A stretch of 22,297 nucleotides of DNA from a virus: the IMG/VR virus record IMGVR_UViG_3300027906_001712, positions 1-22,297 of that record; one strand, given 5' to 3'. The notes under the pieces were generated by a model, which had not been told where the DNA came from, did not search any database, and saw nothing but the letters and a program-made list of their open reading frames with translations. This document shows positions 3,480 to 8,834 of the stretch, in pieces (position 1 is the stretch's first letter; every line of letters begins with the position of its first letter). Made by a program: the position numbers and the translations under genes.

Positions 3480-4364
3480 ATGTCTTTTGCTTCACTTAAG
3501 AAGTCCTCTTTTCAGGACTTGCTCGCTAAGGCTGACAACTTAAATAAAACTGAGAAGTCAGGTCCAGATGAGCGTCTATGGAAACCAGAGGTAGACAAAG
3601 CAGGTAATGGTTACGCAGTAATCAGATTTCTTCCTGCACCCGATGGAGAAGACCTTCCATGGGCACAAGTTTGGACACATGCCTTCCAAGGACCAGGTGG
3701 ATGGTATATTGAAAACAGTCTAACGACTTTAGGTAAAAAGGATCCTGTTTCTGACTTGAACAGGGAACTCTGGAATTCTGGTGGTGAAGGTTCTGCTGAA
3801 AGAACTCAAGCACGCAACCAGAAGCGTAAGTTAAACTATTACAGCAACATTTACGTTGTCAAGGATAGTGCAAACCCTGAGAACGAGGGTAAAGTCTTCT
3901 TGTACCGTTATGGTAAGAAGATCTTTGATAAGGTTATGGAATCAATGCAGCCTGCATTTGAGGATGAGCAACCAGTAAATCCTTTCGATCTTTGGAAGGG
4001 TGCTGATTTCAAACTTAAGATCACTAAGGTTGCAGGTTTCTGGAATTATGATAAGTCTGAGTTTGATAAATCATCAACTCTAGGTGACTTCTCTGACAAA
4101 GAGTTAGAGACAATCTGGAAACAAGAGCACAGTCTTGCTGCTTTCACTGCTGAGGATCAGTTCAAGTCTTACGATGAACTTCGTGAGCGTCTTGAAAGAA
4201 CACTCAAAGGTGGATATAAGAAGCAGGTTGAGCAGGAGCAGTTTGATGAAGAGGTAACTCCAACAGTACAGGGTAGACCCGATGTACCAGGCACTCCAAC
4301 TCCTACACCTTCAGGTGAAGACGATACACTATCTTTTTTCGCTAAATTAGCTAACGAAGACTAA
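3480..4364 (+). CDS. gp32: Single-stranded DNA-binding protein (T4 gp32-like)
   Basis: gp32 coats ssDNA during replication, recombination and repair. The 294-aa product keeps the T4 order. There is a basic N-terminal LAST-like region (ASLKKSS) and the OB core blocks GNGYAVIRFLP (about residues 42-52) and GGWYIEN. These are followed by ANPENEGKVFLYRYGKKIFDKV and VAGFWNYDKSEFDKSS. The C-terminal tail is Pro/Thr-rich and acidic, ending in a hydrophobic/acidic tip. T4 gp32 is 301 aa. The protein has no cysteine, so the T4 zinc site (one His, three Cys) is gone. The start at 3480 has a good CGGAG seven nt upstream. It is expressed from its own promoter and long leader and is closed by a strong terminator. 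Confidence 0.93.
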   Translation: MSFASLKKSSFQDLLAKADNLNKTEKSGPDERLWKPEVDKAGNGYAVIRFLPAPDGEDLPWAQVWTHAFQGPGGWYIENSLTTLGKKDPVSDLNRELWNSGGEGSAERTQARNQKRKLNYYSNIYVVKDSANPENEGKVFLYRYGKKIFDKVMESMQPAFEDEQPVNPFDLWKGADFKLKITKVAGFWNYDKSEFDKSSTLGDFSDKELETIWKQEHSLAAFTAEDQFKSYDELRERLERTLKGGYKKQVEQEQFDEEVTPTVQGRPDVPGTPTPTPSGEDDTLSFFAKLANED

Positions 4365-5039: not shown

Positions 5040-6274
5040 TAGAGATGCTTGTCGGAGTCGAAGTCGGTTCTGGTTAGTGCAGTCAGTTCAGTGAATCTTA
5101 AAGTAGCTGTGATTAAAGGTATAGTACCATCATGGACAGTGCTTACTGTACCAAATGGTGTAGTGTTTACATTTAAACCCTGCAATGCACATAATTTTGT
5201 TTTTGGCATCATCTTATGTGGTTCTGATGACATGGTTACACCTTGTTTCACTGGTACGAATCTAGGTTCTAATACAAATACATCTGGGAATCCTAGTAAT
5301 ACTCCAGTACCCGAACCTAATGGATCTAGTGATGCTGGATGCATACCAATCTTAAACCATTTGAGAATATCTTGGATCATTGTAGATTCTTTTTCATTTC
5401 TTGATGCAAACTCAAAGTTTAGTTCAAACTGTCTGAATTCCATTTTTGAAAAGAATTGTATAGCATTTTCATTTGGTGCCATACCAGCTAGACCAGCAAT
5501 ATTGGTTGGATCCATTAAATCTGAGTTTATACTAAATGGATTACTAGCATATTTTGATCCTTTAGCAGTTCCTGCTGCTAGATCTCCAAATAAGTTATTT
5601 CCACCTCTTGCCCTGTTTTTTAACAAACCCCCTCCAGAACCTAAAGCACCACCTACACCTAAGATTGTGGCAGCTCTTTTGGGATCGTCTGCTAGTAGAG
5701 CCATGGTTCCTAGCTTAAATGTATTATTCCAGTTAGCACCATATTGGTATTGGAATTCATTTGGTAGTGCTAAATTACAATAACTTTTGGCATATCCTTC
5801 ATCGTTAAACTTTCTAACCGCATCTTTTCTATCTAATACCTCTCGTAACGATACCTGTTCTCTTTCTCCACCAATATATCTACCTTCAAATTTCATATCC
5901 AAGATATCATCATTGGTACGTTCGTCTTTTGTAAACCAACCTACTCCATTTTCTTTTCTTGCTTGTTTAATAGCTGCTACATCTCCAGCATTTCTAAAGT
6001 ATACATCGCCAAAGTCATCATTATCAGCTGCTATTCTAGCATATTTGTCTGACTTAGTACCTGAATTGTAAGCCCAATTTGCTGTATTTGATATAGCATT
6101 CGTTACATTTCTAATGCCACTACTATTTGATACAGATCCTAGTGCATCACGTTGATTCTGAGCAACTTGTTTCAGACCATCTTTATAGGAATACTTATTA
6201 ATTTTTATAAACGATGCATATGGGATCTCAGAGATCTGAATTGGATATGCATAGCTTTTATTTGTACCTTCCAT
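5039..6274 (-). CDS. gp48: Baseplate tail tube cap (T4 gp48-like)
   Basis: gp48 sits on the central hub and, with gp54, forms the platform for tail tube polymerisation. The 411-aa product (T4 364 aa) has the conserved N-terminal YPIQISEIPYASFIKINKYS region. A low-complexity Asn/Gly/Ala middle follows. The C-terminal tube-like domain contains FFSKMEFRQFELNFEF, a DILKWFKIGMHP block and a final ITATLRFTELTALTR strand pair. This C-terminal layout is the tube-protein fold shared by gp48 and gp54. It overlaps the gene before and the gene after by one base each (TAATG). The corresponding initiator gp54 is encoded divergently 870 bp away. Confidence 0.85.
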   Translation of the reverse strand: MEGTNKSYAYPIQISEIPYASFIKINKYSYKDGLKQVAQNQRDALGSVSNSSGIRNVTNAISNTANWAYNSGTKSDKYARIAADNDDFGDVYFRNAGDVAAIKQARKENGVGWFTKDERTNDDILDMKFEGRYIGGEREQVSLREVLDRKDAVRKFNDEGYAKSYCNLALPNEFQYQYGANWNNTFKLGTMALLADDPKRAATILGVGGALGSGGGLLKNRARGGNNLFGDLAAGTAKGSKYASNPFSINSDLMDPTNIAGLAGMAPNENAIQFFSKMEFRQFELNFEFASRNEKESTMIQDILKWFKIGMHPASLDPLGSGTGVLLGFPDVFVLEPRFVPVKQGVTMSSEPHKMMPKTKLCALQGLNVNTTPFGTVSTVHDGTIPLITATLRFTELTALTRTDFDSDKHL

Positions 6275-7135: not shown

Positions 7136-7143
7136 TATTTATG
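7136..7143 (-). promoter_or_regulatory. Late-promoter box CATAAATA for gp4 (minus strand)
   Basis: The reverse complement reads CATAAATA, an exact inverted copy of the 7106-7113 box. It is 28 nt upstream of the gp4 start codon. Its plus-strand bases 7141-7143 are the gp54 start codon. The two boxes give a symmetric divergent promoter in a 32-bp intergenic gap. Confidence 0.65.
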
Positions 7144-7944
7144 GCAACCACAAAGCTCTTTGAGTCAAAAGAAAAGTTCAGTATCGATAGTTTTAAGGAC
7201 TTGATTGTCGATAAGGGTATTTCTGCGTCTAATTTATATTCTTTTGAGATCCAAGGTACGGATGCCCTAAAAGGTTATATGAAGACGAATATAAGACAGA
7301 GGTATAGCAATAAAGTATCTCAAGCTGATGATCCTTTTACATCAGGTCAGTATAAATTGAATATGATCTGTAATGAGATTCAGATACCTGGAGTTGATAT
7401 GACTGCATCTGATGTTAAGTCACCTTATAAAGGGTTGACACAGAAGATGGTGTCTGGTAAAGTATATAATGAGCTAGATGTACAGTTTTATTGTGATTTG
7501 AATTCTACTCCCTTGTCTTTCTTTAGAGCTTGGCAAGATATGATCATGGGTAATCAACATGTACAGAATGTATTAGGATATGCTACAGGAAAAGTAAGTG
7601 GTAAAGATGGAGCATATGAAAAAGATTCTAACTTCCATAAGACCCATCAAGCATATGCACAACAGTATTATGATGATTATACATCCAATATAATTATATC
7701 TAAGCTTGAAAAGTATGGGGTGGCAAATAAACCAAAGTATAATAGGGCTGATAATGATTATGATTTTATTCGTCCTGAAGAATGGGATGTGTCATTTAAA
7801 GCAACCTTGACGAATGCTTATCCATATTCCATGTCCTCTGTACCATATAACTTTGGACAATCTGAACTTGTTAGAGTATCTGTGGGATTCTACTACGAGT
7901 ACCAAACTTTCCAATTCTCATACCCAACCCCATCATCCAATTAA
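7141..7944 (+). CDS. gp54: Baseplate tail tube initiator (T4 gp54-like)
   Basis: gp54 tops the baseplate and starts polymerisation of the tail tube. The 267-aa product (T4 320 aa) has a tube-protein character. QYKLNMICNEIQIPGVDMT (about residues 70-88) is followed by LTQKMVSGKVYNELDVQFYC and then FFRAWQDMIMG. After a charged insertion it has EEWDVSFKATLTNAYPYSMS and a final VRVSVGFYYEYQTFQF strand pair. These are the conserved blocks of gp19/gp54-type tube proteins. Being first in the plus-strand hub operon and paired with gp48 supports gp54 rather than gp19. No ribosome site is obvious; the leader from the predicted late promoter would be only about 20 nt. Confidence 0.82.
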   Translation: MATTKLFESKEKFSIDSFKDLIVDKGISASNLYSFEIQGTDALKGYMKTNIRQRYSNKVSQADDPFTSGQYKLNMICNEIQIPGVDMTASDVKSPYKGLTQKMVSGKVYNELDVQFYCDLNSTPLSFFRAWQDMIMGNQHVQNVLGYATGKVSGKDGAYEKDSNFHKTHQAYAQQYYDDYTSNIIISKLEKYGVANKPKYNRADNDYDFIRPEEWDVSFKATLTNAYPYSMSSVPYNFGQSELVRVSVGFYYEYQTFQFSYPTPSSN

Positions 7945-7947
7945 ATT

Positions 7948-8646
7948 ATGCCATTACCTGAAATTGTTACACCAACCTATGAGTTGGTGGTGCCTTCTAC
8001 AAAAAAGAAAATTAAATACAGACCCTTCTTAGTAAAAGAACAGAAGGTTTTGATTGTTGCGATGGAATCGCAAGATGATGCTCAGATAATAGAAGCTATT
8101 AGAACTATACTAAAGAGTTGTATCAATAGTAGAATTAAGATCGATGATCTTGCTTTATTTGATATTGAGTATCTATTTCTTCAAATACGTGCTAGATCAA
8201 TTAGTGAAAAAATTGAATTGAAGATCACTTGTCCTGATGATGGTGAGACTGAAGTTAATGTTAATTTCTTGGTAGATGATGTTAAGGTACAGTTCCCAGA
8301 AGGGCATAGTAATATAATTAAGCTCGAGAATGAGGTTACTATTGAGATGAGGTATCCGAATCTGGATTATTTCCGTAAGGTTAATTTTGCGACTGAACAA
8401 TTAGATCCTTATGATCTAGTAGCAGAGTGTATTAAGAATGTTTATATTGGAACTGAAAGTGCTGGTACCTTTACTTTTAAGGAAGCTAGAGAGTGGGTTG
8501 AAACATTAACTGCTTCTCAGTTTGATAAGATTCAGGAATTCTTTAATACAATGCCTACTCTTAAGCATGAAATGAAGGTGAAGAATCATAAGACAGGTGT
8601 TACTAATGACATAGTGATAGAGGGTTTAGTGAGTTTTTTCGGATAG
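7948..8646 (+). CDS. gp26: Baseplate hub assembly protein (T4 gp26-like); upstream half of a predicted frameshift pair
   Basis: gp26 is required for T4 baseplate hub assembly around the gp29 tape measure. The 232-aa product (T4 208 aa) has an N-terminal beta region (YELVVPSTKKKIKYRPFLVK), a central IKITCPDDGETEVNV-type segment and the family C-terminus AREWVETLTASQFDKIQEFF...LVSFFG. The last codons are AGT TTT TTC GGA TAG. TTTTTTC is an in-phase slippery heptamer, followed after four bases by a perfect hairpin. The -1 frame runs open into gp51, so a minor 295-aa gp26-gp51 fusion (7948-8640 then 8640-8834) is predicted. This is the arrangement of tail-assembly chaperones lying directly upstream of tape-measure genes. 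Confidence 0.85.
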   Translation: MPLPEIVTPTYELVVPSTKKKIKYRPFLVKEQKVLIVAMESQDDAQIIEAIRTILKSCINSRIKIDDLALFDIEYLFLQIRARSISEKIELKITCPDDGETEVNVNFLVDDVKVQFPEGHSNIIKLENEVTIEMRYPNLDYFRKVNFATEQLDPYDLVAECIKNVYIGTESAGTFTFKEAREWVETLTASQFDKIQEFFNTMPTLKHEMKVKNHKTGVTNDIVIEGLVSFFG

Positions 8647-8664
8647 CCCTCTTCAATGAGGGCT
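8634..8664 (+). promoter_or_regulatory. Predicted -1 programmed ribosomal frameshift site (gp26 to gp51)
   Basis: Slippery heptamer T_TTT_TTC at 8634-8640 is in the exact zero-frame phase. A 4-nt spacer GGAT follows, then a hairpin AGCCCTC (8645-8651) / GAGGGCT (8658-8664) with loop TTCAAT. The zero-frame stop TAG is at 8644-8646. After slipping, codons from 8640 read RIALFNEGL and enter gp51 at its ATG without a stop. The 3' stem arm also carries the GAGG that could start gp51 independently, so the hairpin may gate both routes. Confidence 0.75.
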
Positions 8665-8666
8665 TA

Positions 8667-8834
8667 ATGGTGTTCTTTCAAACGAATTTCTCTCTTGTTC
8701 AACACCATAAATATAGCTTGACTGACATTGAAAATATGATTCCGTGGGAACGGGATGTTTATGTGAATTTATTATCTGCTCACTTACAAAAAGAAAGAGA
8801 GCGAATAGAGGAACAAAAGCGCAAGCATGGCTAA
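8667..8834 (+). CDS. gp51: Baseplate hub assembly catalyst (T4 gp51-like), probably also made as gp26-gp51 fusion
   Basis: A 55-aa frame, MVFFQTNFSLVQHHKYSL onward, then TDIENMIPWERDVYVNLL and a charged helix LQKERERIEEQKRKHG. The MxPWERDxYVxLL motif followed by a Glu/Lys helix is typical of gp51 and of the second half of tail-assembly chaperones. gp51 is needed for T4 hub assembly. It lies 20 nt after the gp26 stop, in the -1 frame relative to gp26, with no stop between. Its last 8 nt overlap the start of the tape-measure-like gene. Independent initiation would use GAGG (8658-8661), which is buried in the hairpin. Size and motif support the call; the product form (free or fused) is open. Confidence 0.72.
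   Translation: MVFFQTNFSLVQHHKYSLTDIENMIPWERDVYVNLLSAHLQKERERIEEQKRKHG
8706..8713 (+). promoter_or_regulatory. Possible internal late-promoter box CATAAATA upstream of the tape-measure gene
   Basis: An exact NATAAATA octamer inside gp51, 113 nt before the next gene. It could give extra late transcripts of the 800-aa protein and downstream genes. Only the octamer supports it, and such AT-rich words also occur by chance. Confidence 0.3.

Follow-up and report, generated by a model that had tools for sequence, protein, structure and literature searches.

Genes and features at the gp26-gp51 junction

The analysis covered one strand of a viral DNA stretch of 22,297 nucleotides (IMG/VR virus record IMGVR_UViG_3300027906_001712, positions 1 to 22,297), referred to below as the window. 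The window belongs to a marine T4-like phage. The gp26/gp51 locus lies between a tail-tube-fold gene and a tape-measure-like gene, and the features of this region are listed in Table 1. Two ORFs located upstream of the T4-like structural block, at 195-824 and 1524-2282, are, as we take them to be by the look of their translations, purN-like and purC-like purine-synthesis genes.

Table 1. Coordinates of the features at the gp26/gp51 locus, numbered from the first letter of the window.
Feature	Position	Strand	Description
Tail-tube-fold protein, gp54/gp19 kin	7141-7944	+	PF23849 Phage_TTP_2, E=1.2e-15; PHROG 45 tail tube, E=3.4e-29
gp26, predicted short form (TAC-N)	7948-8646	+	Zero frame, 232 aa, stop TAG at 8644-8646
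Predicted gp26-gp51 fusion, long form (TAC-NC)	7948-8834	+	295 aa, -1-frame stop TAA at 8832-8834
Slippery heptamer T_TTT_TTC	8634-8640	+	Zero-frame codons TTT TTC, -1 codons TTT TTT
-1 linker RIALFNEGL	8640-8666	+	Would be coding only on ribosome shift; -1-frame third-base periodicity in relatives
gp51 C-domain	8640-8834	+	-1 frame, 64 aa past the slip site; annotated-style gp51 start would be the ATG at 8667
Downstream hairpin over the zero-frame stop	8645-8664	+	Stem of 7 bp, of which the inner 6 are conserved; loop of 6 nt
Tape-measure-like protein, 800 aa	8827-11229	+	By position; short, weak hits to PHROGs 973, 3547 and 37649 (tape measure), residues about 461-540; 8-nt overlap with the gp51 stop

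The last gp26 codons of the window are AGT TTT TTC GGA TAG. An earlier, sequence-only reading of this DNA had placed a T_TTT_TTC in zero-frame phase at the last Phe-Phe of gp26, followed by a -1 frame that runs without a stop through RIALFNEGL and gp51. Both statements were correct: the heptamer fits the X_XXY_YYZ phase exactly, and no stop interrupts the -1 frame before the end of the predicted fusion. The heptamer by itself is weak evidence for frameshifting, because 26 in-phase X_XXY_YYZ sites occur within the 6878 codons of the window genes and a second T_TTT_TTC is found in gp32. This second in-phase heptamer (4334-4340, about 10 codons before the gp32 end) was rejected as a frameshift site, as its -1 frame stops after one codon, and it is probably a chance occurrence. 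A long open -1 frame was also rejected as stand-alone proof; such frames are common past the stops of several window genes, due to ATGA gene overlaps.

The arms of the downstream hairpin (8645-8651 and 8658-8664) form a stem with a folding energy of -13.3 kcal/mol when taken alone. For a programmed -1 frameshift, the stimulatory structure is sought about 5-9 nt downstream of the slip site; the spacer here is 4 nt (8641-8644), or 5 nt if the stem is counted as 6 bp. The folding z was -2.2 for 40 nt and -4.7 for an 80-nt stretch, which takes in a second hairpin at about 8667-8708. This second possible hairpin (ATGGTGTT...AACACCAT), folded in the window alone, lies over the gp51 ATG and could mask this start codon or prolong a pause.

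Conservation of the slip site and the -1 frame in relatives

For the comparison with relatives, we used 215 distinct gp26-gp51 junctions from viral contigs and annotated phage genomes. An in-phase T_TTT_TTN was found in 214 of them (TTC in 211, and TTT, TTA, and TTG in one each), and in 212 of these the heptamer was located exactly 10 nt ahead of the gp26 stop. The -1 frame was open in all 215 junctions, from upstream of the slip site to 164-203 nt past the stop. The sequence-only reading had proposed an alignment of the junction across cyanophages as a check on phase and heptamer, and both were borne out by this set; the -1-frame stops between the genes that it named as counter-evidence were absent from the 215 junctions and from the genomes fetched later. 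Four further genomes (Aeh1, Cronobacter S13, Sinorhizobium phiM7, and Synechococcus BUCT-ZZ01) displayed the same slip-site arrangement. Among viral contigs, a scan with the gp26 of Vibrio D527 found no relatives, and a scan with the gp26 of Cr30 yielded only two.

The residue preceding Phe-Phe was variable (Ser, Asp, Asn, Ala, and once Arg), and the codon at this position (AGT, GAT, TCT, AAT, or GCT) had T as its last base in every case. Heptamer entropy was zero at all seven bases in 62 junctions of the window clade and 100 of the P-SSM2 clade. As a control, the other Phe-Phe pairs of the same genes were inspected, and only 2/236 were written as T_TTT_TTC. A chance heptamer was ruled out because the sequence is conserved in the junctions (214/215), unlike in the other Phe-Phe pairs.

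The pattern of substitutions was analysed by codon position. Computed regardless of relatedness, and over a scored stretch of which a part doubles as stem, the entropies displayed a large codon-position contrast in the window clade (62 junctions): 1.28 bits at the zero-frame third position versus 0.56 and 0.45 in the gp26 body, 0.80 bits at the -1 third base (zero-frame position 2) versus 0.04 and 0.41 at offsets +2 to +25, and 0.85 bits at the -1 third position versus 0.10 and 0.20 in the gp51 body. The P-SSM2 clade (100 junctions) had the same shift, less sharp in the junction (0.83 versus 0.48 and 0.60). The periodicity changes from the zero frame to the -1 frame right behind the heptamer, before any gp51 ATG has been reached, and the stretch ahead of this ATG appears to evolve as if it were -1-frame coding sequence.

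These data bear on the alternative in which gp51 is a small gene in its own right: ribosomes would re-initiate at its ATG (8667 here), or its translation would be coupled to that of gp26, and the T run and the hairpin would be incidental. A start codon is indeed present in the first ten -1-frame codons of 182/215 junctions, GenBank records list gp51 as a short gene of its own, and other genes of the window, which overlap by ATGA, are probably coupled. However, no ATG was found among the first ten -1-frame codons in 39/215 junctions, and no ATG, GTG, or TTG in 33; in six junctions, the first of these codons comes at codon 32, adjoining the conserved PWE motif at 33. In addition, the records of CC2, ACG-2014d, P-RSM1, Aeh1, and S13 have no annotated gp51, and an SD-like tetramer stands ahead of only 19/182 starts, although such tetramers are rare ahead of gp26 itself as well (30/212). 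Separate initiation at the gp51 ATG does not account for the -1-frame coding constraint upstream of it, and the invariant heptamer would be left unexplained; we consider this alternative highly improbable. Production of both forms, that is, a long form by frameshift and a free gp51 wherever a lineage has a good internal start, appears rather unlikely. The first -1-frame ATG falls at codon 2 in 89/215 junctions, P-SSM2 among them, and this position is regular, but the P-SSM2-clade ATG lies inside the stem and the coding linker, so its conservation can be explained otherwise. From these alignments, it is very probable that gene 26 of the window phage ends in a site of programmed -1 ribosomal frameshifting.

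As for the RNA structure, the 7-bp hairpin 4 nt behind the heptamer and over the stop, noted in the earlier reading, is present in the window, whereas conservation in relatives is limited to the inner 6 bp. The outermost A-U pair was kept in 43% of 42 distinct sequences, and the remaining pairs in 88-100%. Covariation in the window-clade stem was uninformative, as this stem is nearly invariant. Between clades, the stem sequence differs: GCCCTC/GAGGGC in the window clade, GTATGGCTC/GAGTCATAC in P-SSM2, and a longer stem in S-PM2. The mean folding energy of 43 divergent junctions reached its minimum right at the stop (-9.25 versus about -3 to -8 elsewhere), and among 155 distinct downstream sequences 72% had a stem scoring at least 15 points, compared with 4-21% of control windows. 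In 66 P-SSM2-type sequences, 81% of cells were paired and 0/2000 shuffles were as high, with the proviso that kinship inflates such counts. The structure was strong and conserved in the window clade and in the majority of P-SSM2-type junctions, and folding was weak in several S-SM1-type, CC2, and Rhizobium junctions. A stimulatory structure is likely at the junctions, though not universal.

Relatives without a slippery site were the other counter-evidence named in advance. The site was missing from one of the 215 junctions (VP-1, Ackermannviridae) and from four later-fetched Ackermannviridae or VP-1-like genomes. In Vibrio VP-1, Vibrio K397, SFP10, LIMEstone1, and VPALA, the -1 frame is open past gp26 and T_TTT_TTN is absent. 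The gp26 ends in this group are CAC GTT TTT CGC TAA, GAG ATT TTC ATT TAA, TCA CTT TTC AAG TAA, and CAA CTT TTC AGA TAA. The C-domain profile matched LIMEstone1 (E=7e-7), SFP10 (E=2.4e-5), and K397 (E=0.0035), whereas VPALA was not significant, and in SFP10 the -1 frame opens without a start codon nearby. As the heptamer is absent but the -1 C-domain is kept, these phages must use either a slip site of an unconventional type or some other mechanism. We tentatively suggest that these phages may frameshift at an unconventional NTT_TTY with one good tRNA re-pairing, as a variant of the T_TTT_TTC system.

Relation of the products to T4 gp26 and gp51

The gp26 of the window matched Pfam PF12322 T4_baseplate (E=1.3e-66) and PHROG 150 (E=2.3e-74), and gp26 matches were found in more than 650 phage records. 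The fusion aligned with PHROG 150 over residues 1-279 and scored 292 bits, compared with 251 bits for gp26 alone. The -1-frame gp51 C-domain matched PHROG 634, described as 'baseplate hub assembly catalyst', from residue 2 (E=2.1e-26), as well as columns 237-279 of PHROG 150. Within the T4 group, the gp51 of Brandy aligned with the fusion over 278 columns across the junction (E=7e-11), and the gp26 profile matched the T4-type gp51 profile with an hhalign probability of 96% (E=1.7e-9). The profile of the frameshift C-domain matched residues 207-246 of T4 gp51 (E=2e-7) and Brandy gp51 (E=2.2e-9), and it had no gp26 matches.

By these matches, T4 gp51 is evidently the long form hard-wired in one frame, composed of a gp26-like domain and a gp51 domain, and T4 gp26 is evidently the short form. 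The sequence-only reading had treated T4 gp26 and gp51 as simply separate hub factors, a description to be replaced, as they look like short and long forms from two genes. No usable slip site was found at the end of T4 gene 26. In T4, Krischvirus, and Gelderlandvirus, each form has a gene of its own and the two genes lie on opposite strands, while the Straboviridae of Aeromonas, Vibrio, and Cronobacter have the frameshift arrangement. The Straboviridae hence contain a switch between frameshifting and the two-gene arrangement, a case, open to testing, in which recoding and gene duplication substitute for each other. The N-domain tree, which is unrooted and gives no direction to this switch, comprised three groups: T4-type 26, T4-type 51, and the frameshift proteins.

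Two minor observations were made on the T4-type genes. T4 gene 26 has an annotated internal product, 26' (T4 record 5803-6090). In one IMG/VR genome, a T4-type gp51 is split over two frames (about 2336-2360 of its sequence); this split was set aside, being probably a sequencing or assembly error.

Proposed chaperone role and comparison with known systems

The short and long forms share a common N-terminal domain and would be made via frameshift here and via two genes in T4. The arrangement and the sequence matches support gp26/gp51 as a lambda G/GT-like tail-assembly-chaperone pair upstream of the tape-measure-like gene. The sequence-only reading had suggested such a pair, and its suggestion gains comparative support from the apparent coding of the -1 frame right past the heptamer and from the T4-group gp51, which appears to be the same fusion in one frame. 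In the proposed mechanism, most ribosomes would translate gp26 to its stop and release the short chaperone. A minority would be held up at U_UUU_UUC by the stop-covering hairpin, slip one base back, and read on through gp51 to give the long gp26-gp51 fusion. Many short and few long chaperones would result, in a ratio set by the slip efficiency. On the model of lambda gpG/gpGT, the gp26 part would form a coat on the tape-measure protein encoded by the next gene, the gp51 tail, being rarer, would bring in tail-tube subunits, and both forms would leave during tail building. We infer the slip, its efficiency, and the chaperone function alike.

Lambda gpG/gpGT reportedly belongs to a wider tail-assembly-chaperone frameshift family, attributed to Xu, Hendrix and Duda in 2004, a work that PMC12859696 also cites. 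The lambda slip site is G_GGA_AAG. In both lambda and the window phage, two overlapping frames are flanked by a tail-tube-type gene on one side and a tape-measure gene on the other, and a -1 slip late in the first frame, predicted in the window, yields a short form and a rarer C-extended form. The two differ in the slip site, T_TTT_TTC in the window, and in the first protein, which is longer in the window phage (232 aa). The likeness rests on this arrangement; no library search linked gp26 with the lambda G sequence. The AlphaFold2 model of gp26 had a pLDDT of 85, and a PDB structure search with this model returned nothing significant, the HK97 tail assembly chaperone 2ob9 appearing at E=3.2 (probability 0.21, target TM 0.40). 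A PDB structure search with a T4-type gp51 gave no significant match, and the PDB sequence search gave no match.

The gene order of tail-tube fold, 26, 51, and tape measure corresponds to V-G-T-H in lambda, and this speaks against the alternative that the products are structural hub proteins and that frameshifting places a few extended copies in the hub. That alternative draws on a T4 tail review, which reports earlier work and genetics placing gp26 in the hub (PMC3004832), and on the record of Dickeya phage LIMEstone1, where the gp26 homologue is listed as a confirmed structural protein, which is not expected for a pure assembly chaperone. However, this review also lists both gp26 and gp51 in a table as hub assembly chaperones and describes gp51 as required and absent from the particle (PMC3004832), and Vladimirov et al. 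(2022), judging by its title and by the papers citing it, assigns chaperone genes in T4-like phages. We consider a structural hub role unlikely, and the chaperone pair is the reading retained here.

A conserved -1 frameshift with a poly-T motif at the TAC-N end has been described in Vandenendeviridae/Andersonviridae (phage Adele), where the ORF that follows does not stand as a gene of its own (PMC12846349). The Adele locus resembles the present one in its poly-T -1 frameshift at the end of TAC-N and differs in its motif, GTTTTT instead of T_TTT_TTC; the two are compared by arrangement, not by kinship within the gp26 family. The tail assembly chaperone genes of T4-like phages were identified by Vladimirov, Gautam and Davidson (2022, Virology 566:9-15), as cited in PMC10885494 and PMC12846349. 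In the PRFect paper, this work is cited for "some T4-like phages" in which frameshifting is replaced by a pair of genes, one short and one long and fused (PMC10885494). The phage Adele paper cites the same work as the source for poly-T slip sites in the TAC-N genes of T4-like phages (PMC12846349). The chaperone identity of gp26/gp51, presented in the sequence-only reading as an inference of its own, had thus already been proposed for the T4-like case, according to these two citing papers. A published cyanophage demonstration of gp26/gp51 frameshifting was not found in the literature searched. Since the principle is known from lambda and was proposed earlier for T4-like phages, the present locus is a well-supported instance of it and not a new system; new here are the scale of conservation and the explanation of the "truncated" cyanophage gp51 and the "missing" Aeh1 gp51.

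In a 2010 comparison, the cyanophage gp51 had about 20% of the length of other gp51 proteins, with approximately the first 200 residues missing, and Aeh1 was without gp51 (PMC3037559). The cyanophage gp51 would be short because it is the C-terminal part of the frameshift product, the missing residues being supplied by gp26. The Aeh1 gp51 seemed to be missing because the domain sits un-annotated in the -1 frame, behind a T_TTT_TTC just past gp26 (C-domain profile E=3.3e-17). This settles the cyanophage "gp51" as most likely the C-terminal part of a frameshift product. The deeply conserved slip signal would join gp26 and gp51 in the window phage and in nearly all relatives outside the T4 group proper, and hundreds of phage records hold the locus; those examined annotate gp26 and gp51 separately or omit gp51.
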